From positions 2,407,489 to 2,471,488 of the forward strand of contig NZ_CP100416.1 in NCBI RefSeq assembly GCF_026017845.1: a DNA stretch of 64,000 nt, in the 5' to 3' direction. The stretch is from Amycolatopsis mediterranei. GTDB lineage: Bacteria; Actinomycetota; Actinomycetes; Mycobacteriales; Pseudonocardiaceae. Under the pieces are notes generated by a model, which was not told where the DNA came from, made no database searches, and saw nothing but the letters and a program-made list of their open reading frames with translations. Positions 52,212-63,811 of the stretch are shown in pieces (the first letter of the stretch is position 1; the number at the start of each line of letters is the position of its first letter). The position numbers and the translations under genes are program-made.

Positions 52212-53435
52212 ATGGGGGCTGACGTGACGACCGACGAAATCCTCGAGGTGGCACAAGACTTCGCGCAGGACGCGCACCTCTTCTCGGAGATGTTGCGCGA
52301 AGGCGGCCCGGTGCGCCTGGTGCGGCTGCCGCCGCGGGGCCTGCCGTGCTACGTGGTCACCGGGTTCGCGGAGGCGCGGGCGCTGCTGGCCGATCCGCGG
52401 CTGCAGAAGAGCAGCCAGGGCATCCGTGCGGTCTTCGAAGCGAAGCTGCCGCCGGAGGCGCTGCAAAACGGCCTGGGGCAGGACCTGAGCTGGCACATGC
52501 TCAACTCGGACCCGCCGGACCACACGCGGCTGCGGAAGCTGGTGAACAAGGCGTTCACCGCGCGCACGGTGGCCCGGCTGCGGCCGCGGGTCGAGGAGAT
52601 CACCGCGGAGCTGCTCGACGCGCTGGCCGGGCAGGAGCGGGCCGACCTGGTGGCGTCGTTCGCCGCACCGCTGCCGATCACGGTGATCTGCGAGCTGCTC
52701 GGCGTGCGCGAAGAGGATCGCGCGGAGTTTTCCGGCTGGTCCAGGACACTGCTGAGCGCGGCGGTGAACCTGGAGCAGGTGCAGGCCGCGGCGGCGAGCA
52801 TGTTCGCCTACCTGACCGACCTGATCGCCCAGAAGCGCGCCGAGCCGGCCGAAGACCTGCTGTCGGACCTGGTGCACGCGAGCGACGACGGGGATTCGCT
52901 GTCCGAGCCCGAACTGGTGTCGATGGCGTTCCTGCTGCTGGTCGCCGGGCACGAGACCACGGTCAACCTGATCGCCAACGCTGTGCTGGCGCTGCTGCGC
53001 GAGCCGGAGCAGCTGGCCCGGCTGCGCGCGGAGCCGGAGCTGCTGCCGGGCGCGGTGGAGGAGTTCCTCCGCTTCGACGGCCCGATCCACCTGGCCACCC
53101 TGCGGTTCACGGCCGAGCCGGTGGAGGTCGCCGGAGTGACGATCCCGGCGGGCGAGCTCGTGCTGGTCTCGCTGCTGGGCGCCAACCGCGACGCGGAGCG
53201 CTACCCGGAGCCGGACCGCCTGGACATCACCCGCGCGGTGAGCGGCCACCTGGCGTTCGGGCACGGGATCCACTACTGCGTGGGGGCGCCCTTGGCCCGG
53301 CTGGAGGCGGAGATCGCGCTCGGCGGGCTGCTGGCGCGGTTCCCGGGGCTGGCGCTGGACGCGAAGGCGGACGAGCTGGTGTACCGGACGAGTTCGCTGG
53401 TGCACGGGTTGGAGACGCTGCCGGTCCGGCTGTGA
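52212..53435 (+). CDS. Cytochrome P450
   Basis: A 407-residue soluble class I P450, most like the CYP107/CYP105 groups of actinomycetes. The I-helix oxygen-binding motif is LLVAGHETTVNL, the E-x-x-R is in VEEFLRF, and the haem loop is FGHGIHYCVGAPLARLE with the thiolate Cys356. Upstream, LNSDPPDHTRLRKLVNKAFT is the C-helix. Start at ATG 52212; GTG 52224 has a GGGGG upstream and is an alternative. No ferredoxin gene is adjacent. The substrate is unknown: it could belong to secondary or lipid metabolism. Confidence 0.92.
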   Translation: MGADVTTDEILEVAQDFAQDAHLFSEMLREGGPVRLVRLPPRGLPCYVVTGFAEARALLADPRLQKSSQGIRAVFEAKLPPEALQNGLGQDLSWHMLNSDPPDHTRLRKLVNKAFTARTVARLRPRVEEITAELLDALAGQERADLVASFAAPLPITVICELLGVREEDRAEFSGWSRTLLSAAVNLEQVQAAAASMFAYLTDLIAQKRAEPAEDLLSDLVHASDDGDSLSEPELVSMAFLLLVAGHETTVNLIANAVLALLREPEQLARLRAEPELLPGAVEEFLRFDGPIHLATLRFTAEPVEVAGVTIPAGELVLVSLLGANRDAERYPEPDRLDITRAVSGHLAFGHGIHYCVGAPLARLEAEIALGGLLARFPGLALDAKADELVYRTSSLVHGLETLPVRL

Positions 53436-53558
53436 AGACGCTTCGGGCCGGGCCCGGGGAGCGAGGGGATGGGGCGGGCTGGGCGGATTTCGGCCGGTCG
53501 GTTCCACCCGCCGCCGAGGCGCGGGAACCCGGCTGAGGCGGTGTCGTAGGGTCGGCGG

Positions 53559-54839
53559 ATGGACTCCGCCGACCTGCTCGCGTTGGACGCCCAGCACGTC
53601 TGGCACCCCTACGCGCCGATGCCGGCGAAGGTGCCGGCGCTGCTGGTCACCGAGGCGAGCGGCGTCCGGCTGAAGCTCGCCGACGGCCGGGAACTCGTCG
53701 ACGGCATGTCCTCCTGGTGGTCCGCCATCCACGGCTACCGGCACCCCGTGCTCGACGCCGCCCTCACCGCGCAAGCCGGGCGGATGAGCCACGTCATGTT
53801 CGGCGGCCTCACCCACGAGCCCGCCATCACCCTCGCCAAGACCCTGGCCGACCTCAGCCCCGACGGCCTCGAGCACGTCTTCCTCTGCGACTCCGGTTCC
53901 GTCTCGGTCGAAGTCGCCGCGAAGATGTGCCTGCAGTACCAGCGCTCTCGCGGGCTCCCCGGGAAACGGCGGCTGCTCACCTGGCGCGGCGGCTACCACG
54001 GGGACACCTTCACGCCGATGAGCGTCTGCGACCCCGACGGCGGGATGCACTCGCTGTGGCGCGGGATCCTGCCCGAACAGGTCTTCGTGCCCGCACCGCC
54101 GTCCGGCTTCGACACCCCGCCCGATCAGTCCTATGTGGACCTCCTGGCCGCGGAAATCGAGCGGCACGAGGACGAACTCGCCGCGGTGATCGTCGAACCC
54201 GTGGTGCAGGGCGCCGGCGGAATGCGGTTCCACCACCCCGCCTACCTGCGCGCGCTGCGGGAACTCACCGAAGCGCACGACGTGCTGCTCGTCTTCGACG
54301 AGATCGCGACCGGCTTCGGCCGCACCGGCGCGCTGTTCGCCGCCGAGCACGCCGGTGTCACGCCCGACGTCATGTGCGTGGGCAAGGCGCTCACCGGGGG
54401 CTACCTGAGCATGGCGGCCGCCCTGTGCACCCCGGAAGTCGCCGCCGGGATCGCGCGCGGCGAACTGCCCGTCCTCGCGCACGGCCCGACCTTCATGGGC
54501 AACCCGCTCGCCTCGGCCGTCGCCAACGCCTCCCTCGGCCTGCTCGCCGACGGCGGCTGGCGCACCGACGTCACCCGGCTCGAAAAGGGCCTGCTCGACG
54601 GCCTGGCCCCGGCGCGCGACCTGCCCGCGGTCACCGACGTGCGGGTGCTGGGCGGGATCGGCGTGCTGCAGCTCGACCACCCCGTCGACCTGGCCGTCGC
54701 CACGGACGTCGTCACCGCGCACGGTGCCTGGTTGCGGCCGTTCCGGGACCTCGTCTACGCCATGCCGCCGTACGTTTCGACTGACGACGACCTCGCCGTG
54801 ATCACCGGCGCGATGCTCGCGGTCGCCGAGAAGGCCTGA
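53559..54839 (+). CDS. bioA: Adenosylmethionine-8-amino-7-oxononanoate aminotransferase
   Basis: PLP enzyme of biotin synthesis that converts KAPA to DAPA with S-adenosylmethionine as amino donor. The 426-residue protein has HVWHPYAPM at the N-terminus, [14 protein letters not shown] near 50-63, [24 protein letters not shown] near 246-260 and the PLP lysine in [18 protein letters not shown] nine bases before the ATG could be a -10 box of a leaderless transcript. It opens the biotin locus; bioF is absent from the window. Confidence 0.95.
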
Positions 54840-55008
54840 ATTCAGCACATCGGGTGTGACCACCGGCACACCGAGACCCGAACTCCCCTCATCGTCGCGC
54901 AGCGTGCCGGACCACGATTTACACCACGCGAACGGTCGAGGCGACCAGGGTGAAACCGGCGGCGATCCCGTCGATCCTGTGCCCGGTCGAACGCGAGAAA
55001 TCCTTGCG

Positions 55009-55033
55009 TAGCAGACATTTCGCCCGGTTTCGG
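55009..55033 (+). promoter_or_regulatory. Conserved 25-nt element before the first SulP-CA gene
   Basis: TAGCAGACATTTCGCCCGGT plus TTCGG lies 13 bases upstream of the start codon. The second SulP-CA gene has a copy identical at 20 of 25 positions (57476-57500). It may be a shared regulator site or promoter part, or a remnant of gene duplication. Confidence 0.45.
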
Positions 55034-55046
55034 CGATCCTGCCCCC

Positions 55047-57293
55047 ATGATCGAGATCGTTCGTGGCGAACACGACACCGGACCCCCGAAGCACTCCGCA
55101 CACCTGGAGAACCTCGAGCACGATTTCCTCGCGTCGATCGTCGTCTTCCTCGTCGCCGTCCCCCTGTCCCTCGGCGTGGCCTTCGCCGCCGGGGCGCCGC
55201 TGCTCTCCGGCCTGATCTCCGCGGTCGTCGGCGGGCTGGTCGCGAGCCTCTTCGGCGGATCGCCGCTGCAGGTCAGCGGGCCCTCCGCCGCCCTCACCGT
55301 GGTGCTGGCCGACACGATCGCCACCCACGGCTGGCCGGTCACCTGCGCGATCACCGTCGCCGCCGGCCTGCTCCAGATCCTCTTCGGCCTCACCCGGGCC
55401 GCCCGCGCCGCGCTCGCCGTGTCGCCGGCGATCGTGCACGGCCTGCTCGCCGGCATCGGCGTCACGCTCGTGCTCGGCCAGCTGCACGTCGTCCTCGGCG
55501 GCTCGGCCCAGGGCTCCGCGCCGGCCAACGTCCTGGCGCTGCCGGGGCAGGTCGCCGCCCACCACGACCAGGCCGTGCTGATCGGCGTCGTTACCCTCGG
55601 CGTCCTGCTGGCCTGGCCGCGGCTGCCGAACGCCGTCCGCCGCGTGCCCGCGCCGCTGGCCGCCGTCGCGCTGGCCACCGGCCTCTCCATCGCGACCGGC
55701 ATGACCCTGCCGCGCGTCGACCTCCCCGCCGGGCTGCCCTCGCTGCACCTCGTGCCGCGGCTGCCGGACGGCGGCTGGGGCGGCTTCGCCGTCGCCGCGG
55801 TCACCATCGCGCTCATCGCCGGCCTGGAGAGCCTGCTGTCCGCGGTCTCGGTGGACAAGCTCCGCGGCGGCCCGCGCACCGACCTCGACCGCGAACTCAT
55901 CGGGCAGGGCGCGGCGAACGTCGCCGCCGGCGCGCTCGGCGGCTTCCCCGTCACCGGCGTCATCGTGCGCAGCATGACCAACTTCGAGGCCGGCGCGCGC
56001 ACCCGGGCCTCGGCGATCCTGCACTGCGGCTGGATCCTCGCCGCCTGCCTGCTGCTCACCGGCGTGCTGCGGCTGATCCCGCTGGCGGCGCTGGCCGCGC
56101 TGCTGGTGTACGTCGGGACGAAGCTGGTGAACCTGCACGGCCTCAAGGAAGTGCGGCGCCACGGCGACCTGCCGGTGTACGCGGTCACCCTGGCCGGCGC
56201 GGTGGCCGTCAACCTGCTCACCGGCGTCGCGGCGGGGGTCCTGCTGGCGCTGGCGATGATGCTGCGGCGGATGATCTTCTCCGGCATTCACGTCGAAAGG
56301 GAAAGCACCGGACGGGCGGGTGACCGCCACCGCGTCGTCATCGAAGGCGCGCTGACGTTCCTGTCCGTGCCGCGGCTGACCCGGGTGCTCGCCGACGTGC
56401 CCCCGCACGCCGAGGTCACCCTCGAGCTGCTCGTCGACTACCTCGACCACGCCGCGTTCGACTGCCTGCGCGGCTGGCAGCAGGCGCACGCCGGGCCGGT
56501 CACGGTCGACGAGATCGGGCACCCGTGGTTCGGGCGCGGCCGCGCGGGGGAGCCGACCGTGCGCCGCAGCGTCGCCGCGCGCGTGGTGCCGAGGTGGCTC
56601 GCGCCGTGGTCGGAGTGGCAGGCCGAGCACGTCGTGCTGCCCGCCCAGCGCACCGCCAGTTCCCTGCTGTGCCGCGGTGCTTCGGAGTTCCAGCGCCGCA
56701 CGGCGCCGCTGCTGCGCGACACGTGGAGCGGGCTGGCGCACGGCCAGCAGCCGCACACGCTGTTCATCACCTGCGGCGACGCGCGGATCGTGCCGAACCT
56801 GATCACCACCAGCGGGCCGGGCGACCTGTTCACCGTGCGCAACATCGGCAACCTCGTGCCGCCGGCCGACGGCACGGACTCGTCGGTCGGCGCGGCGATC
56901 GAGTACGCCGTCGGCGTGCTCGAGGTCGCCGAGATCGTGGTGTGCGGCCATTCCGGCTGCGGCGCGATGAAGGCGCTGCTCGGCCGGGCCCCGGCCGGGC
57001 TCGACCAGCTCGGCAGCTGGCTGCGCCACGGCGAAGCGACGCTCCGGCGCCGCAGCCGCGAGGCACCGCTGCTGCTCGGCGGCGAGCGGCCGGCCGCCGA
57101 GGCCGATCAGCTGGCTCTGCAGAACGTGGCGCAGCAGCTGGAAATGCTGCGCGGCTACCCGGTGGTCGCGGCGGCCCTGGAGCGGGGCGCGCTGCGGCTG
57201 ACCGGGATGTACTTCGACGTCGGCGCGGCGCAAGTGTCCCTTTTGGACGATGTGGTGCGCGGGTTCGTCCCCGCGGGGGCGCTGGAGCACTGA
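55047..57293 (+). CDS. SulP anion transporter fused to a beta-carbonic anhydrase (1)
   Basis: A 748-residue fusion. The N-terminal SulP part (about 27-410) has the family's VVFLVAVPLSLGVAFAAGAP opening, GGLVASLFGGSPLQVSGPSA, and later FPVTGVIVRSMTNFEAGART. A STAS-like domain lies near 425-510. The C-terminal beta-carbonic anhydrase (about 555-748) keeps the zinc ligands Cys576, His635 and Cys638 and the Asp578-Arg580 dyad (TCGDARI, CGHSGCGAMKAL). Predicted role: bicarbonate uptake coupled to CO2/bicarbonate interconversion. Placed between bioA and bioD, suggesting supply of CO2 for BioD or bicarbonate for biotin carboxylases (inference). Starts at ATG. Confidence 0.9.
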   Translation: MIEIVRGEHDTGPPKHSAHLENLEHDFLASIVVFLVAVPLSLGVAFAAGAPLLSGLISAVVGGLVASLFGGSPLQVSGPSAALTVVLADTIATHGWPVTCAITVAAGLLQILFGLTRAARAALAVSPAIVHGLLAGIGVTLVLGQLHVVLGGSAQGSAPANVLALPGQVAAHHDQAVLIGVVTLGVLLAWPRLPNAVRRVPAPLAAVALATGLSIATGMTLPRVDLPAGLPSLHLVPRLPDGGWGGFAVAAVTIALIAGLESLLSAVSVDKLRGGPRTDLDRELIGQGAANVAAGALGGFPVTGVIVRSMTNFEAGARTRASAILHCGWILAACLLLTGVLRLIPLAALAALLVYVGTKLVNLHGLKEVRRHGDLPVYAVTLAGAVAVNLLTGVAAGVLLALAMMLRRMIFSGIHVERESTGRAGDRHRVVIEGALTFLSVPRLTRVLADVPPHAEVTLELLVDYLDHAAFDCLRGWQQAHAGPVTVDEIGHPWFGRGRAGEPTVRRSVAARVVPRWLAPWSEWQAEHVVLPAQRTASSLLCRGASEFQRRTAPLLRDTWSGLAHGQQPHTLFITCGDARIVPNLITTSGPGDLFTVRNIGNLVPPADGTDSSVGAAIEYAVGVLEVAEIVVCGHSGCGAMKALLGRAPAGLDQLGSWLRHGEATLRRRSREAPLLLGGERPAAEADQLALQNVAQQLEMLRGYPVVAAALERGALRLTGMYFDVGAAQVSLLDDVVRGFVPAGALEH

Positions 57294-57299
57294 CGAACC

Positions 57300-57340
57300 G
57301 ACGGCGGCCACCTCCGTTGCCGGCGGAAGTGGCCGCCGTC
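57300..57340 (+). terminator. Terminator between the two SulP-CA genes
   Basis: ACGGCGGCCAC at 57301-57311 pairs with GTGGCCGCCGT at 57329-57339. It lies 7 bases past the first gene's stop, so the second gene is likely to have its own promoter in the remaining 165 bases. Confidence 0.55.
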
Positions 57341-57475
57341 GCGCAAAGCCTTGTGTCGTACGGAATTCAACTGTCACCTGACAGGCGGCGGCTTGTGAAC
57401 GGCGTGTTAACGGGCTGCCCGGCATGTGACATCCGGGCTAATTGTGGCGATTTGTTCACTCGATCGGGTGGAACA

Positions 57476-57500
57476 TAGCGGACATTTCACTCGATTTCCG
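57476..57500 (+). promoter_or_regulatory. Conserved 25-nt element before the second SulP-CA gene
   Basis: TAGCGGACATTTCACTCGAT plus TTCCG, the partner of the element at 55009-55033. Here it is only 5 bases from the ATG, so it overlaps the ribosome-binding region, and spacing to the start differs from the first copy. Confidence 0.45.
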
Positions 57501-57505
57501 GTTGC

Positions 57506-59689
57506 ATGGTGATCATGAGACCCCTCGCCGTGCTCCGACACGACCTGCCGGCCTCACTGGTCGTCTTCCTCGTAGCCGTTCCCCTGTCCCTCGGCATCGC
57601 CCTCGCTTCGGGGGCCCCGGTCGCCGCCGGGCTGGTGGCCGCCGTCGTCGGCGGCATCGTCGCCGGCGCGCTCGGCGGCTCCGTGCTGCAAGTCAGCGGG
57701 CCCGCCGCCGGCCTGACCGTGGTCATGGCCGAAACCATCCAGACGTTCGGGTGGGTCGTCACCTGCGCGATCACCGTCGCCGCCGGCGCGTGCCAGATCC
57801 TGCTGGGGCTGAGCCGCATCGCGCGTGCCGCGCTGGCCATCTCGCCGGCGATCGTGCACGGCATGCTGGCCGGCATCGGCGTCACGATCGTGCTCGGCCA
57901 GCTGCACGTCATCCTCGGCGGCAAGGCCCAGAGCTCGGCCGTGGAGAACGTCGCCGAGCTGCCCGCCCAGATCATCGCCCACCACGACGCCGCCACCATC
58001 GTCGGCCTGATCACCATCGGCCTGCTGCTGCTCTGGCCGAAGCTGCCGGCCGCGGTCCGCAAGGTGCCGGGGCCGCTCGCCGCGATCGCGGTGGCCACGG
58101 TGGTGTCGGTGGTGTCCGGGATGACGCTCCCGCGCGTCGAACTGCCCGGTGACCTGCTGAACGTCCACCTCGTCCCGCAGCTGCCGGACGGCGGCTGGAG
58201 CGGGTTCGCCCTCGCCGTCGTCACGATCGCGCTGATCGCCAGCGTGGAGAGCCTGCTCTCGGCGGTCGCGGTCGACCGCATGCACACCGGGCCGCGCGCC
58301 AACCTCGACCGCGAGCTGGTCGGGCAGGGCGCGGCCAACATGCTCTCCGGCGCGCTGGGCGGCCTGCCCGTCACCGGCGTCATCGTCCGCAGCTCCACCA
58401 ACGTCACCGCCGGGGCGAAGTCCCGGGCGTCGGCGGTGCTGCACGGTGTCTGGGTGCTGCTGTTCGTCGTCCTGCTCGCCGGGCTGATCCAGAGCATCCC
58501 GCTGGCCGCGCTGGCCGGGCTGCTCGTGCACGTCGGCGCGAAGCTGGTCAACCCCGGGCACATGAAGACCGTGCTGGCCCACGGCGACCTGCCCGTGTAC
58601 CTGCTCACCCTCGCCGGCGTCGTGGTGTTCGACCTGCTCACCGGCGTGCTGGCGGGCATCGGGCTGGCGGTGGTGCTGATGCTGCGCCGCACGGTCTGGT
58701 CGGGTATCCACATCGAACGGGAGGGTGACGACTGGCGCGTCGTCGTCGAAGGTGTGCTGACGTTCCTGTCGGTGCCGCGGCTGTCGAAGGTGCTCGGGAC
58801 CGTCCCGGGCGGGGTCACCGTGCGGCTGGAACTGGTCGTCGACTACCTCGACCACGCCGCGTTCGAGAGCCTGCACACCTGGCAGCAGGCGCACGAGCGC
58901 GCCGGCGGCACGGTGGAGGTCGACGAAGTCGGCCACCCGTGGTTCGGCGAGGGCAAGGCGGGCCGCCCGACGCGGTCCCGGGTCGCCGCGAGCCGGGCGG
59001 TGCCGCGCTGGCTGGCGCCGTGGTCGGAGTGGCAGGCGGCGGAAGCGGTCGAGATCCCGGCCCAGCAGACCCGACGCGGCGCCACGGAGTTCCACCGCCG
59101 CGCGGCCCCGCTGCTGCGTGACACGCTGTCGGGCCTGGCCGACGGCCAGCGGCCGCGCACCCTGTTCATCACCTGCGGTGATTCCCGGATCGTGCCGAAC
59201 CTGATCACGACGAGCGGGCCGGGCGACCTGTTCACCATCCGCAACATCGGCAACCTGGTCCCGCCGGGCCAGGCGGACGCGTCGATGAACGCCTCGATCG
59301 AGTACGCGGTGGGCGTCCTCGGGGTCGAGGAGATCGTGGTGTGCGGCCACTCGAGCTGCGGTGCGATGGCGGCACTGGCCGACGGTCCGCCGCCGGGGCC
59401 GCTGTCGGCCTGGCTGCGCCACGCGGAACCGAGCGCGCACCGGCTGGGCTCGGCCACCCTCGACGGCGCGGTCCCGGACCGGGAGGGCGATCGGCTGGCG
59501 CTGCACAACGTCCTCCAGCAGCTGGAGCACCTGCGCGAGTACCCGGCGGTGGCGGCGGCCGAGCCGGCCGGGAAGCTGCAGCTGACGGGGATGTACTTCC
59601 ACGTCGGCGACGCCCAGGTGTACCTGTTCGACGCGGCCGGGCGGACGTTCCGCCCGGCCGGGGCGCCGGTGGTGGTGCCGGGCGCCTGA
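57506..59689 (+). CDS. SulP anion transporter fused to a beta-carbonic anhydrase (2)
   Basis: A 727-residue paralogue of the gene before it with the same three-part plan: SulP membrane domain (about 10-385; SLVVFLVAVPLSLGIALASG, GGSVLQVSGPAAGLTVVMAE), STAS-like domain (about 405-490), and beta-carbonic anhydrase with Cys557, Asp559, Arg561, His615 and Cys618 (TCGDSRI, CGHSSCGAMAAL). All catalytic residues are kept, so both copies look active. The two differ mainly in the linker between STAS and anhydrase domains. Probably arose by tandem duplication. bioD starts 181 bases downstream. Confidence 0.9.
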   Translation: MVIMRPLAVLRHDLPASLVVFLVAVPLSLGIALASGAPVAAGLVAAVVGGIVAGALGGSVLQVSGPAAGLTVVMAETIQTFGWVVTCAITVAAGACQILLGLSRIARAALAISPAIVHGMLAGIGVTIVLGQLHVILGGKAQSSAVENVAELPAQIIAHHDAATIVGLITIGLLLLWPKLPAAVRKVPGPLAAIAVATVVSVVSGMTLPRVELPGDLLNVHLVPQLPDGGWSGFALAVVTIALIASVESLLSAVAVDRMHTGPRANLDRELVGQGAANMLSGALGGLPVTGVIVRSSTNVTAGAKSRASAVLHGVWVLLFVVLLAGLIQSIPLAALAGLLVHVGAKLVNPGHMKTVLAHGDLPVYLLTLAGVVVFDLLTGVLAGIGLAVVLMLRRTVWSGIHIEREGDDWRVVVEGVLTFLSVPRLSKVLGTVPGGVTVRLELVVDYLDHAAFESLHTWQQAHERAGGTVEVDEVGHPWFGEGKAGRPTRSRVAASRAVPRWLAPWSEWQAAEAVEIPAQQTRRGATEFHRRAAPLLRDTLSGLADGQRPRTLFITCGDSRIVPNLITTSGPGDLFTIRNIGNLVPPGQADASMNASIEYAVGVLGVEEIVVCGHSSCGAMAALADGPPPGPLSAWLRHAEPSAHRLGSATLDGAVPDREGDRLALHNVLQQLEHLREYPAVAAAEPAGKLQLTGMYFHVGDAQVYLFDAAGRTFRPAGAPVVVPGA

Positions 59690-59870
59690 CCCGCCGGTCG
59701 CGTTGCCCGAGGTGCGAGCCGGGTCCGCTTCCGGCGGGCCCGGCTCGCTCCGCACGGTCGCCGCGGCCCGCCTCCGCAGGCCCGTGAAGCCCGGCGCCGC
59801 GCGGGCCGCCGGCCGCCCTGACCACGGCCCGCGTGCGCGCCCCGCCCCGGAGTCACTATGTTGATGGCCC

Positions 59871-60596
59871 GTGACCATGCTGGTGATGACGGGGACCGGG
59901 ACCGGGGTCGGCAAGACGATCACCACGGCGGCGATCGCGGCCCTGGCGGTGGCCGGGGGACAGCGGGTGGCCGTGCTGAAGCCGGCCCAGACCGGGGTGC
60001 GGCCCGATGAGCCGGGTGACCTCCAGGACGTCGTCCGCCTCGCGGGGCCGGACGTCACCACGCGCGAACTGCGCCGCTACCCGGATCCCCTGTCACCGGA
60101 GGCCGCCGCCCGGCGCAGTGGGCTGCCGTCGCTCGATCCCGGCGAAATCGCCCAAGCCGCGTCCGACCTCGACACCGCGCACGACCTCACCCTCATCGAG
60201 GGCGCCGGCGGGCTGCTCGTGCGTTTCGACCGCGCCGGCGCGAGCCTCGCCGACGTCGCCTGGTCGCTCGGCTCGCTCGTGATCATCGTGGCCGAGGCCG
60301 GGCTCGGCACGCTGAACGCCACCGCGCTCACCGCCGAGGTCGCCGGCAAGCGCGGGCTGACCGTCGCCGGCGTGATCATCGGCGCGTGGCCGGCCGAACC
60401 GGACCTCGCGGCGCTGTCCAACCTCGAAGACCTGCCGGTCGCGGCGGGGGCACCCCTGCTCGGCGTGCTGCCCGCCGGCATCGGCCGGTCCTCCCGCGAG
60501 GACTTCCTGGCCGCGGCGCGGGCCGGGCTCTCGCCGTGGTTCGGCGGCGAATTCGACCCGGAACTTTTCGCTGGTTGCGCTTCCGCCGGGAAGTGA
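59871..60596 (+). CDS. bioD: Dethiobiotin synthetase
   Basis: Closes the ureido ring of dethiobiotin from DAPA, CO2 and ATP, so it consumes CO2 directly. The 241-residue protein has the P-loop GTGTGVGKT near 8-16, VLKPAQTG near 35-42, IEGAGGLLVRF near 109-119 and a C-terminal nucleotide region. Starts at GTG; TATGTT about 12 bases upstream could be a -10 box, and no Shine-Dalgarno sequence is seen, so the transcript may be leaderless. bioB follows after 78 bases. Confidence 0.95.
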   Translation: MTMLVMTGTGTGVGKTITTAAIAALAVAGGQRVAVLKPAQTGVRPDEPGDLQDVVRLAGPDVTTRELRRYPDPLSPEAAARRSGLPSLDPGEIAQAASDLDTAHDLTLIEGAGGLLVRFDRAGASLADVAWSLGSLVIIVAEAGLGTLNATALTAEVAGKRGLTVAGVIIGAWPAEPDLAALSNLEDLPVAAGAPLLGVLPAGIGRSSREDFLAAARAGLSPWFGGEFDPELFAGCASAGK

Positions 60597-60674
60597 CCTG
60601 CATCGCTGTCGCCTCGACGCACCTTCGTGCACGATGAGGGACGCTTTCCGCACCACCTCGATCAAGGAGCCGCC

Positions 60675-61751
60675 GTGACCGCAGTCCCGGACACCGATGT
60701 CAGTGACAGCCGGGGCTCCGCCCCGGGCCGGGGGCTCCGCCACCCGGAGCCCCCGAAGGATGTCCTCGCCCTGGCACGCGAGCAGGTCCTCGAAAACGGC
60801 GTCGGCCTCGGTGAACAGCAGGTCCTCGACGTGCTCCGGCTGCCCGACGACCGGCTGCCCGACCTCCTCGCTCTGGCGCACGAGGTGCGGATGCGCTGGT
60901 GCGGGCCGGAGGTCGAGGTCGAAGGCATCATCAGCCTGAAGACCGGCGGCTGCCCCGAGGACTGCCACTTCTGCTCCCAGTCCGGCCGCTTCCCGACGCC
61001 GGTGCGCTCGGCGTGGCTCGACATCCCGAACCTGGTCAAGGCCGCCCGGCAGACCGCCGAAACCGGCGCGACGGAGTTCTGCATCGTCGCCGCCGTCCGC
61101 GGGCCGGACCAGCGGCTGCTCTCGCAGGTCCGCGAGGGCGTTCGCGCGATCCGCGCGGACGGGAACGACATCCAGATCGCCTGCTCGCTGGGCATGCTGA
61201 CGCAGGAGCAGGTCGACGAGCTCGTCGACATGGGCGTCCACCGCTACAACCACAACCTCGAGACGGCGCGTTCGCACTTCCCGTCGGTGGTCACGACGCA
61301 CACGTGGGAAGAGCGCTGGGACACCCTGCGCATGGTCGCCGACGCGGGCATGGAGGTCTGCTGCGGCGGCATCATCGGCATGGGGGAGACGGTCGAGCAG
61401 CGCGCGGAGTTCGCTGTGCAGCTGGCCGAGCTGAACCCGCACGAGGTGCCGATGAACTTCCTCATCCCGCAGCCGGGCACGCCGTACGAGCACTACGAGA
61501 TCGTCGAGGGTCGCGACGCGCTGCGGACGGTCGCGGCGTTCCGGCTCGCGATGCCGCGCACGATGCTGCGCTTCGCCGGCGGCCGCGAGCTCACGCTGGG
61601 CGACCTCGGTGCGGAGCAGGGCATGCTCGGCGGGATCAACGCGATCATCGTCGGCAACTACCTGACCAACCTGGGCCGGCCGGCTTCGGCGGACCTGGAG
61701 ATGCTGGACGAGCTCAAGATGCCCATCAAGGCCCTCAGTGACAGCCTCTGA
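60675..61751 (+). CDS. bioB: Biotin synthase
   Basis: Radical-SAM enzyme that inserts sulfur into dethiobiotin. The 358-residue protein has the SAM cluster CPEDCHFC (Cys93, Cys97, Cys100), [22 protein letters not shown] and [18 protein letters not shown] five bases before GTG 60675 defines the start. The first 28 residues are odd: residues 12-28 ([17 protein letters not shown]) are encoded by a copy of the double-hairpin repeat that is otherwise intergenic. The normal family N-terminus begins at [12 protein letters not shown]. The stop is overlapped by bsaP. Confidence 0.95.
60710..60757. repeat. Double-hairpin repeat, copy 4, inside bioB
   Basis: CCGGGGCTCCGCCCCGGGCC followed by GGGGGCTCCGCCACCCGGAG and CCCCCGAA, almost the exact reverse complement of the copies at 24061 and 38950. 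It is 48 bases (16 codons) long and therefore keeps the bioB frame; both hairpins remain perfect. Confidence 0.85.
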
Positions 61752-61941
61752 CGCGGCCTTTTGTGTCCACTGTGGACAGCAGTTGCCGGGTGGGGCGGAC
61801 CACCCGGCGTGCCACAACCCCCGGACGGCGCTGGAACCACCGCGCTACTGCACGTTCTGCGCGCGCCGGCTGGTGGTCCAGGTGAGCCCGCTCGGCTGGA
61901 CGGCCCGCTGCAGCCGCCACGGCGAGACCGCGAGCGGCTGA
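61738..61941 (+). CDS. bsaP: Biotin synthase auxiliary protein
   Basis: A 67-residue Cys-rich protein corresponding to Rv1590. Cysteines are at 9 and 12 (FCVHCGQQ), 25, 38 and 41 (YCTFCARR) and 58. In mycobacteria this protein carries an iron-sulfur cluster and helps biotin synthase regain its sacrificed sulfur cluster for repeated turnover. The GTG start lies inside the last codons of bioB (14-base overlap), so the two are translationally coupled, which fits a one-to-one helper. Confidence 0.85.
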
Positions 61942-61953
61942 CGGCGGCGTGGG

Positions 61954-62023
61954 GTAACGAACCGGATCGTTCATCAGTGGGGCGGGCCGGCTGGTGCGGC
62001 GCGGTGACGAACCGGATCGTTCA
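61954..62023. repeat. Two direct copies of a 20-bp palindrome-containing sequence
   Basis: GTAACGAACCGGATCGTTCA at 61954-61973 and GTGACGAACCGGATCGTTCA at 62004-62023, exactly 50 bases apart (about five helical turns). Each contains GAAC-N6-GTTC symmetry. They lie between bsaP and the DUF2567 gene, so they may be a paired operator or the promoter region of the downstream gene. Confidence 0.6.
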
Positions 62024-62125
62024 GCACGAGTCCGCACGGTCCGCGTCGGCGACACGGCGAGCGGCTCACCCCGCCCACGCCTCGACCGGTTACGCTCGGT
62101 GGCACTGTTGCAGGAGGGAGTCCTG

Positions 62126-62722
62126 GTGAGTGAGTCGTCGGGGCCCGCGCACCGGCCGTCGGCCGTCGCCGGCCCGTGGTCGGTGCCCGTGCTGGTCCGG
62201 GAGCGGCGGCCGCGCGTCGTCGTGAAGGCCGACCTGCTGCCCGCCATCAGCGTGCTCGGCACCCTGAGCCTGCTGAGCTTCCCGCTCGCCTTCGCGTGGT
62301 CGCGGCTCGCGCCGCCGGAGCGGGTGCGCATCGTCGCCGCCGACGGCACCCAGGGCGCCCTGGAGCTGGAGAGCTGGCACCGGTTCGACGACCTGGCCGT
62401 CTTCGGCTTCCTCACGCTCGGGCTGGGGATCGTCGTCGGCGTCGTCTGCTGGCTGCTGCGCGAACGGCGCGGGCCGGTGGTCTTCCTCGCCGCGGTGCTC
62501 GGCGTCGCGCTCGCCGGCGCGCTCGCCATGCTGCTCGGCGTCGGCTGGGCGAACAGCCACTACGCCATCTCCAGCCCGCCCGCGCTGGGTTCGGTGATCG
62601 AACTGGCGCCACGCCTGGAGTCGTGGTGGGTGCTGCTGACCGGCCCGCTCGGCGTGTCGATCGCCTACAGCCTGCTGACCACCTGGAACGGGCGCGACGA
62701 CCTGGGTCGCCGCCTCGGCTGA
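62126..62722 (+). CDS. DUF2567 membrane protein
   Basis: A 198-residue protein matching Rv1591, which also follows bioB and bsaP in M. tuberculosis. A polar N-terminus (about 1-38) precedes four hydrophobic helices (about 42-62, 88-112, 118-140, 168-188), with an extracytoplasmic loop carrying WSRLAPPERVRIVAADGTQG. CAGGAGGGAG lies five bases before the GTG. Function is unknown; the conserved neighbourhood is the only hint of a tie to biotin. Confidence 0.85.
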   Translation: MSESSGPAHRPSAVAGPWSVPVLVRERRPRVVVKADLLPAISVLGTLSLLSFPLAFAWSRLAPPERVRIVAADGTQGALELESWHRFDDLAVFGFLTLGLGIVVGVVCWLLRERRGPVVFLAAVLGVALAGALAMLLGVGWANSHYAISSPPALGSVIELAPRLESWWVLLTGPLGVSIAYSLLTTWNGRDDLGRRLG

Positions 62723-62770
62723 CCGCTTTCCCCTAAGGTGGTGTCCGTCACCTACAGGGGGGATCCAGCA

Positions 62771-63811
62771 GTGACCGAGGACATCGAGGTTTCGCGGCAC
62801 AACGCCGTCCGCTTTCCCGGCATCAGCCCGCGCGCGTACGAGCACCCGGTGGACCGCGGCGCGCTCGCCACGTTGCGCGCGGTGCCGGGCTTCGCCCAGG
62901 TCGTGAAGGCGGTTTCGGGCTTCTACAACGAGCGCGGCGAGCGGCTGATGGCGCTGGCGTCGTCGATCCGCGTCGGGCCGAAGCAGTACCCGGAGCTCGA
63001 GCGGCTGCGCCACGAATGCGCCGAGACGCTGGACCTGCCCGCGGTGCCGAACCTGTTCGTCTTCCAGAACGCGCAGATCCAGGCGCAGACGGTCGGCATG
63101 GACGAGCCGTTCATCGCGATCAGCACCGGGCTCGTCGAGCTGATGAACCAGGAGTCCCTGCGATTCGTGCTCGGCCACGAGATGGGGCACGTGCTCTCCG
63201 GGCACGCGGTCTACCGCACGATCATGGTGCGCCTGATCAGCCTGCAGCTGGCGATGTCCTGGACGCCGGTCAGCGCGCTCGGCATCCGCGCGATCATCGC
63301 GGCGCTGCGCGAGTGGTTCCGCAAGGCCGAGCTGTCGTGCGACCGCGCCGGCCTGCTGTGCAGCCAGGACCCGACGGCGGCGCTGCGCGCCCAGATCCAG
63401 GTGGCGGGCGGCATCGACCCGGCGCGCATCGACGTCCCGTCGTTCCTGCAGCAGGCCGCGGAATACGAGTCGGTCGAGGACATCCGCGACAGCTTCCTCA
63501 AGCTGAAGTCGGTCGAGACGGAGTCGCACCCGTTCGCGGTGGTGCGCGCGGCGCAGCTGCAGAAGTGGGCGGCCTCGGAGAACTACCGCGCGATCCTGGC
63601 GGGCGACTACGTGCGCCGGGATGCCGAAAGCCCGTCGTCGGACTGGAAGGACGACCTGAAGTCGGCGGCCCAGTCGTACAAGGAATCGTGGAACTCGTCG
63701 ACGGACCCGCTGACGAAGGTGTTCAGCGACGTCGGCGAAGCGGTTTCGGGCGCCGCGGGCAAGGTGTGGAACAAGTTCGGCAACGGGAACGGGAACGGCG
63801 CCGCGGACTGA
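62771..63811 (+). CDS. M48 family zinc metalloprotease
   Basis: A 346-residue HtpX/Ste24-type peptidase. The zinc motif is LGHEMGHVLSGH (His-Glu-x-x-His) near 137, and the third ligand is the Glu in KAELSCDRAGLL. Hydrophobic stretches after the zinc motif (VSALGIRAIIAAL) may anchor it in the membrane. The C-terminal 60 residues are polar and end in a GNGNGNG repeat. AGGGGGG precedes GTG 62771. Expected to degrade damaged membrane or cell-surface proteins; the substrates here are unknown. Confidence 0.87.
   Translation: MTEDIEVSRHNAVRFPGISPRAYEHPVDRGALATLRAVPGFAQVVKAVSGFYNERGERLMALASSIRVGPKQYPELERLRHECAETLDLPAVPNLFVFQNAQIQAQTVGMDEPFIAISTGLVELMNQESLRFVLGHEMGHVLSGHAVYRTIMVRLISLQLAMSWTPVSALGIRAIIAALREWFRKAELSCDRAGLLCSQDPTAALRAQIQVAGGIDPARIDVPSFLQQAAEYESVEDIRDSFLKLKSVETESHPFAVVRAAQLQKWAASENYRAILAGDYVRRDAESPSSDWKDDLKSAAQSYKESWNSSTDPLTKVFSDVGEAVSGAAGKVWNKFGNGNGNGAAD

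Follow-up and report, generated by a model that had tools for sequence, protein, structure and literature searches.

SulP-carbonic anhydrase fusions in the biotin locus of Amycolatopsis mediterranei and other Pseudonocardiaceae

Here we describe two tandem genes in a 64,000-nucleotide stretch of the Amycolatopsis mediterranei genome (the window; contig NZ_CP100416.1, positions 2,407,489 to 2,471,488, part of a 10.6 Mb single-contig genome). Each encodes a SulP/SLC26-type anion transporter fused to a beta-carbonic anhydrase (CA), and both lie between bioA and bioD in a biotin locus. With moderate confidence, we read the fusion as an autonomous inorganic-carbon module that is lodged in the biotin locus, where co-expression with bioD is optional. 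Heterotrophic actinobacteria need bicarbonate for their biotin enzymes, and to our knowledge, how they secure it has been little studied. Close relatives of the window genome form a natural series: the fusion stands beside the full set of biotin genes in some, beside part of it in others, and beside no biotin gene at all in others still, and the biotin genes occur with and without the fusion. This makes it testable whether CO2 supply is tied to biotin supply.

The fusions and their place in the biotin locus

The two fusion proteins are 67% identical to one another. Both exceed the Pfam cut-offs for an N-terminal SulP/SLC26 domain (PF00916) and a C-terminal beta-CA (PF00484), and in fold comparison the two parts match the SLC26 fold and CcaA, respectively. 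The first-pass annotation took the zinc ligands and the Asp-Arg dyad to be intact in both copies, and alignment confirms this (Cys557, Asp559, Arg561, His615, and Cys618 in P0003); the same C-D-R-H-C set recurs in 106 of 109 aligned fusions, the remaining three deviating at the Arg. A STAS domain lies between SulP and CA, as seen in a strand-helix pattern at residues 400 to 475 and in STAS-bearing SLC26 chains that align to residue 478; Pfam gave no STAS match in the window fusions. Within the transporter part, Arg295 is present in 109/109 fusions and Glu248, in transmembrane helix 8 (TM8), in 101/109, replaced by Ala in six, Gly in one, and Gln in one. The six Ala variants all belong to genus g26 (loci L057 and L066 to L070; genera, families, genomes, and loci are coded g, f, G, and L) and may have lost ion coupling, to judge from the substitution. 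By all sequence and fold features tested, the window genes encode SulP-CA fusions, and bicarbonate is their putative substrate.

We surveyed 297 genomes of the family, the Pseudonocardiaceae. Of the 126 genomes with listed matches, at least 45, spanning nine genera (g1, g9, g10, g15, g20, g24, g26, g41, and g44), have a fusion within 4 kb upstream of bioB on the same strand; among the matches listed, 18 of these 45 have a tandem pair, all in the genus of the window. A further search of 75 family genomes found the fusion directly 3' of bioA in 17 more genomes from three genera: g42 (13/15, the other two, G200 and G219, having no fusion), g3 (2/9; in the other seven, the two matches are split between contigs, in several cases at contig ends, or bioA was not found), and g5 (2/3). 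These fusions are ∼50 to 64% identical to those of the window, and in the fetched loci bioF comes next. Among the best 80 of a larger number of named loci, which are not independent of the numbered genomes, 17 are linked to biotin genes, all in Pseudonocardiales: Amycolatopsis (12/12, two of them with bioD alone), Actinomycetospora (2/2), Herbihabitans (1/1), Saccharomonospora (1/1), and one other locus. The nearest named fusions are from Amycolatopsis (best, 93%). In the same 80 loci, the link is absent from Prauserella (0/2), Actinokineospora (0/2), Sciscionella (0/1), and all other orders. Gene calls in the relatives' loci were crude (longest start, GC3 filter) and missed bsaP.

Outside the family, 70 genomes gave a fusion-like match together with a hit to bioA or bioB. 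In none of them do the two lie within 10 kb; in one, they are 11.6 kb apart. This sample took 80 of the 108 genomes with a fusion-like match (the 28 left out belong to families f2 and f20), 10 of which had no bioA or bioB hit, and for only 13 matches was a biotin gene on the same contig; some matches lie in open frames below 650 amino acids and are possibly unfused SulP, and contig ends may mask links. Within one family, fusions occur beside biotin genes far more often than by chance. However, the conserved block also includes the unrelated flanking genes pimB, P450, DUF2567, and nadA, which are about as well conserved as the biotin genes, and we therefore rejected conserved adjacency alone as proof of a functional link.

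Two side observations concern fusions placed otherwise. In 17 genomes without direct linkage (G010, G019, G047, G057, G089, G109, G142, G158, and nine others), the distance between fusion and bioB is 58 to 94 kb among the matches listed, and in 14 of the 17 the two genes are on opposite strands, which hints at a common ancestral region or an inversion. At locus L087 (G018), the fusion is near a second, shorter SulP-type frame (526 amino acids) that runs in the opposite direction.

Both fusions were initially described as standing in place of bioF, and this did not hold. The genome has a probable bioF at a distance of ∼166 kb, which scores 389 bits with TIGR00858 (cut-off 426); bioF is also missing from 13 of 16 biotin loci of relatives picked as fusion-less, which read bioA-bioD-bioB; and in the fetched loci of g3, g5, and g42 the fusion is flanked by bioA on one side and bioF on the other. 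The distant gene and the 13 fusion-less loci rule out the fusion as a bioF replacement.

The remaining description of the locus stands: bioA, both fusions, bioD, bioB, and bsaP are all on the forward strand at 53559-61942 (Table 1). Spacers measure 207 nucleotides (nt) from bioA to fusion 1, 212 nt between the fusions, and 181 nt from fusion 2 to bioD. The part of bioB that is kept in most relatives starts at about residue 43, where the matches begin. bsaP starts inside the end of bioB, with an overlap of 14 bases; it was called from its translation and from homologues in relatives. An Rfam search of positions 53000 to 62800 returned no matches.

Table 1. Features of the biotin locus, in coordinates of the window
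Feature	Position	Strand	Evidence or remark
bioA (adenosylmethionine-8-amino-7-oxononanoate transaminase)	53559..54839	+	TIGR00508 532.9 bits, cut-off 405; PRK05964 also over cut-off
Upstream element of fusion 1 (CGTAGCAGACATTTC)	55007..55021	+	25 nt 5' of start codon; 2 mismatches to CATAGCGGACATTTC
Fusion 1, SulP/SLC26 + STAS-like + beta-CA, 748 aa	55047..57293	+	PF00916 233 bits, PF00484 143 bits
Hairpin behind fusion 1, terminator-like without T tract	57299..57341	+	-40.4 kcal/mol for 67 nt, z -5.2
Upstream element of fusion 2 (CATAGCGGACATTTC)	57474..57488	+	17 nt 5' of start codon; sole exact genome match
Fusion 2, SulP/SLC26 + STAS-like + beta-CA, 727 aa	57506..59689	+	PF00916 and PF00484 over cut-off
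Hairpin behind fusion 2, 16-bp stem, terminator-like without T tract	59714..59748	+	59690-59790 fold -62.9 kcal/mol, z -2.9
bioD (dethiobiotin synthase)	59871..60596	+	TIGR00347 101 bits, cut-off 83.3
bioB (biotin synthase)	60627..61751	+	TIGR00433 359 bits, cut-off 225
bsaP	61738..61942	+	GTG start; hand-read frame, translation, homologues 3' of bioB in relatives
DUF2567 gene	61994..62722	+	Start codon uncertain; PF10821 40.7 bits, cut-off 30

Fusion and biotin genes apart

The fusion and the biotin genes separate in both directions. All seven g33 genomes read pimB-fusion-DUF2567-nadA, with no biotin gene in the fetched 20 kb, and two named Prauserella loci have the same layout. In each of the seven g33 loci, the DUF2567 gene has thus kept its place near nadA and the fusion with the biotin genes gone, which argues that it is not tied to biotin either. 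Partial sets occur as well: eight g26 genomes plus G270, G246, and G053 have the fusion with bioD alone, and G223 and G267 keep bioA and bioD beside it.

Twenty-two genomes have no orthologous bioB (G209 among them is also fusion-less, and in G249 the absence reflects a contig end); in 18 of them, a divergent bioB located elsewhere exceeds the TIGR00433 cut-off. This replacement is accompanied by bioA and bioF in 10 of 16 fetched stretches and by a fusion in none. The distant BioB proteins (L106 to L121, from G223, G267, G246, G270, and g26 and g33 genomes) are ∼36 to 39% identical to the window BioB, and no BsaP match was found in these 16 stretches, as if a BsaP-dependent BioB and BsaP had been exchanged jointly for a BsaP-free enzyme, repeatedly in the family. 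Where the replacement stretch has no bioD (12 stretches), the native bioD is kept in nine (G223, G267, G246, G092, G187, G113, G064, G162, and G130) and lost in G033, G149, and G164, where no bioD was found; where the stretch has one (4 stretches), the native bioD is lost in G133, G067, and G095. It is kept in G270, where the native bioD next to the fusion coexists with a second bioD in the replacement cluster (L109 and L177), an intermediate stage of displacement.

Conversely, the biotin genes are in order in 15 of the 16 fetched fusion-less loci, which were picked for lacking the fusion: 13 read bioA-bioD-bioB-bsaP-DUF2567, two (G200 and G219) read bioA-bioF-bioD-bioB, and one (G196) is broken up. 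Fusion-less and fusion-bearing genomes can share a genus, as do G062, G128, and G185 with G024, G090, G111, G144, and G160, and G200 and G219 with the 13 genomes that read bioA-fusion. Some of the fusion-less biotin loci have a fusion elsewhere in the genome (e.g., G057, G010, and G190). Across the 297 family genomes, 184 have both fusion and orthologous bioB, 31 the fusion only, 29 bioB only, and 53 neither, counts that rest on E-value thresholds alone (1e-110 and 1e-120), were hand-copied from lists, and are uncorrected for kinship. The 60 off-diagonal genomes count against the necessity of a tie. The fusion is therefore not gained and lost along with the biotin genes, as an obligate biotin-synthesis gene would be.

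We also searched 35 chosen family genomes, 22 fusion-bearing and 13 fusion-less, for other CAs using the Pro_CA model. A weaker match of 40 to 53 bits occurs in all but G025 (34/35); in the window genome it is a 163-amino-acid protein, the length of Rv1284 in a table of PMC6834203. Of the fusion-bearing genomes, 19 have no other match above 100 bits (exceptions, G033, G223, and G267). Among the fusion-less genomes, G012, G025, and G046, from three genera, carry an unfused CA adjacent to a SulP gene and away from bioA; G003, G049, G081, and G209 have another CA above 100 bits; and G062, G128, G185, G200, G219, and G038 have none. This distribution fits a general CO2/HCO3- module that is useful yet dispensable, and the locus suggests that, in many of these bacteria, the main Can-type CA is probably the membrane-tethered one, the fusion.

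Expression, origin, and role of the fusion

How might the fusion be expressed? A search up to 700 nt past the fusion stop located the bioD motif GTGTGVGKT at 32 loci, all of them g1-type. The motif starts 32 to 77 nt from the stop at 26 of these and 105 to 306 nt from it at six, which are the window locus and those of five relatives in its genus. In g42, bioF follows the fusion at variable distance (1.3 kb in G166). An element resembling CATAGCGGACATTTC is recognizable before many g1-type fusions, including some with no bioA upstream (G053 and several g26). A scan of the window's own genome with up to two mismatches gave 11 sites, versus 2 for a reversed control pattern, and no clear regulon, since two sites precede the fusions and most others fall inside predicted genes. 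Scans for sigma-70 promoters and T-tract terminators found none, the latter missing the hairpin behind fusion 1. Folding of the 70 nt 3' of each fusion gave -40.4 and -45.3 kcal/mol in the window, -46 to -55 kcal/mol (one, -36.9) for the lone g33 fusions, and -25 to -31 kcal/mol for 20 of 26 closely spaced fusion-bioD pairs (exceptions, G205, -15; G014, -34; G092, -33; G246, -35; G187, -36; and G239, -37). Weaker values also occur at some loci with long spacers in the window's clade (G287, -33; G171, -31). The contrast between lone fusions and fusion-bioD pairs, which also differ in GC content, is thus no more than suggestive. Together, the upstream element, spacing, and hairpins indicate that the fusion is probably transcribed from a promoter of its own and, in most g1-type relatives, reads into bioD. 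In the window, where the spacer to bioD contains a 16-bp hairpin, transcription probably stops before bioD, and the fusions look like separate transcription units.

In the tree of fusions, the biotin-linked members occupy four separate places in two different well supported clades, and the tree needs seven changes of linkage (at least six forced in one analysis, five in another). The approximately unbiased (AU) test gave p 0.069 for g1-type and g36 fusions joining the clade with g42, g3, and g5 and p 0.074 for g42, g3, and g5 as one clade, so a single origin of the bioA-fusion link with later losses is possible. The AU test did reject one clade of g1-type fusions with only the linked g42, g3, and g5 rows (and G004). 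Paralogy of the fusions is likely, because G016, G022, and G032 each hold a fusion from each of two clades.

Anatomy, linkage, separations, and spacing are observed in the sequences; for transport substrate and direction, transcription units, and physiological role, we infer the following model. The SLC26/SulP transporter with its STAS-like domain would carry the beta-CA on a flexible linker, combining anion transport and CO2/HCO3- interconversion at one membrane site. In this family, the fusion would have lodged between bioA and the remaining biotin genes. In most g1-type relatives, it is the first gene of a tight fusion-bioD-bioB series, and bioD is probably driven from the fusion promoter as well. 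The window's clade has a duplicated fusion, which larger spacers and hairpins probably made monocistronic. Its job would be the general supply of HCO3-/CO2 (or pH balance) and not biotin synthesis itself.

Several observations weigh against this model of a lodged general module. Spacers as short as those in 26/32 loci are tidier than neutral lodging would predict, and the positive co-occurrence of fusion and bioB favors some tie. The link appears at four places in two clades of the tree. The upstream element was unrecognized in five of seven g33 loci (and weak in the other two) and in the scanned g3 and g42 loci. Finally, the native bioD might stay only where it is needed (9/12 versus 1/4 kept), an idea that is weakened because all six losses fall within genus g33 and the trend amounts to one event at most.

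An alternative is neutral synteny: a single insertion beside bioA, inherited with a conserved block and without regulatory or metabolic meaning. This agrees with the unrelated flanks, about as well conserved as the biotin genes, the separation in both directions, and AU tests that allow one origin; it accounts poorly for the short fusion-bioD spacers, mostly without hairpins of the lone-fusion type (with the same caveat on GC content), and for linked fusions in two clades. We regard it as a tentative possibility, on the unlikely side.

The first-pass annotation saw metabolic sense in a predicted bicarbonate importer fused to a CO2-hydrating enzyme at this place, given that BioD uses CO2 and biotin enzymes use bicarbonate. 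Part of this stands, namely, the linkage in one family and the near contiguity with the CO2-using bioD. Under dedicated coupling, the fusion, as a functional member of the biotin system, would give BioD CO2 from imported bicarbonate and give bicarbonate to the biotin-dependent carboxylases. Such coupling would explain why the fusion lies directly 5' of bioD and why, in most g1-type loci, the spacer between them is short or the genes overlap; why the fusion-bioD pair outlasts bioA and bioB in the eight g26 genomes, G270, G246, and G053; why G270 keeps its native pair despite a second bioD; why the link spans 12 genera; and why fusion and bioB co-occur. A role specific to biotin synthesis is not supported, because the natural separations are clean in both directions and the link is not seen within 10 kb outside the family. 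The g33 fusion persists without an adjacent bioD, the 15 fusion-less loci are intact, none of the 16 replacement stretches carries a fusion, and a small Rv1284-like CA is available in the window's own genome, with a match of similar size in nearly all genomes searched. We consider dedicated coupling unlikely. Its fullest form, a Pseudonocardiaceae biotin operon coupling vitamin synthesis to inorganic-carbon supply, in which a membrane CA transporter co-expressed with bioD feeds CO2 to dethiobiotin synthase and which was gained in two fusion lineages (bioA-fusion-bioD-bioB and bioA-fusion-bioF-bioD-bioB), seems decidedly unlikely.

It is improbable that the SulP part imports sulfate or another anion (BioB needs sulfur), with the CA serving pH balance only. 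The case for sulfate lies in two residues: Arg295 aligns with an Arg of SULTR4;1 and SLC26A11, where BicA has Gly, and the counterpart of Glu248 is Glu in SLC26Dg and Asp in BicA. Animal SLC26 proteins that exchange bicarbonate also have the Arg, which counts against sulfate. The excerpted text of the SULTR4;1 paper equates the Glu248-aligned position with its own proton-coupling Glu347 and names Arg393 as stabilizing sulfate (PMC8298490). However, SLC26Dg has Gln at the Arg position and a direct alignment with SULTR4;1 is shifted by three residues at Glu347, making the residue argument weak; moreover, the SulP part is joined to a CA, and Rv3273 is listed as a bicarbonate transporter, after Felce and Saier, in a passage of PMC6458275.

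Comparison with known systems

SulP-CA fusions themselves are known; what is new is their place in a biotin locus. The first-pass annotation knew of no system linking these functions genetically, and none of the titles and abstracts listed in searches of an open-licence library describes a locus joining biotin genes, CA, and SulP. The closest relatives are the Rv3273-type fusions, which have the same domain order and a similar length; the CA domain of Rv3273 (mtCA 3 of Mycobacterium tuberculosis) is reported as catalytically active in the excerpted text of PMC6834203. Unlike these, the fusions described here are in a biotin locus, in tandem, and with bioD close behind in relatives. In family f2, of the same order, none of 13 tested genomes is linked within 10 kb and one is at 11.6 kb; at the one f2 locus fetched (L146), no fusion lies between bioA and bioF, and the fusion is 11.6 kb upstream of bioA. 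The cyanobacterial Na+/HCO3- symporter BicA is more distant: the window fusions score 143 and 125.6 bits against a curated NCBIfam cut-off of 880, with Glu in place of the Na+-binding TM8 Asp and Arg in place of Gly.

A functional parallel is the can2-sulP cluster of Acidithiobacillus ferrooxidans, whose transcripts drop as CO2 rises and which, like the fusions, pairs SulP and beta-CA as a unit; it differs in having separate genes in an autotroph, and no biotin-gene link is described in the passages on this cluster (PMC6458275). For the biotin genes, the comparison is with Mycobacterium, where the excerpted text of PMC11099021 describes bioA-bioF-bioD and an operon bioB-bsaP-rv1591. These are the same genes, and the bioB-bsaP-DUF2567 order is shared with the window.

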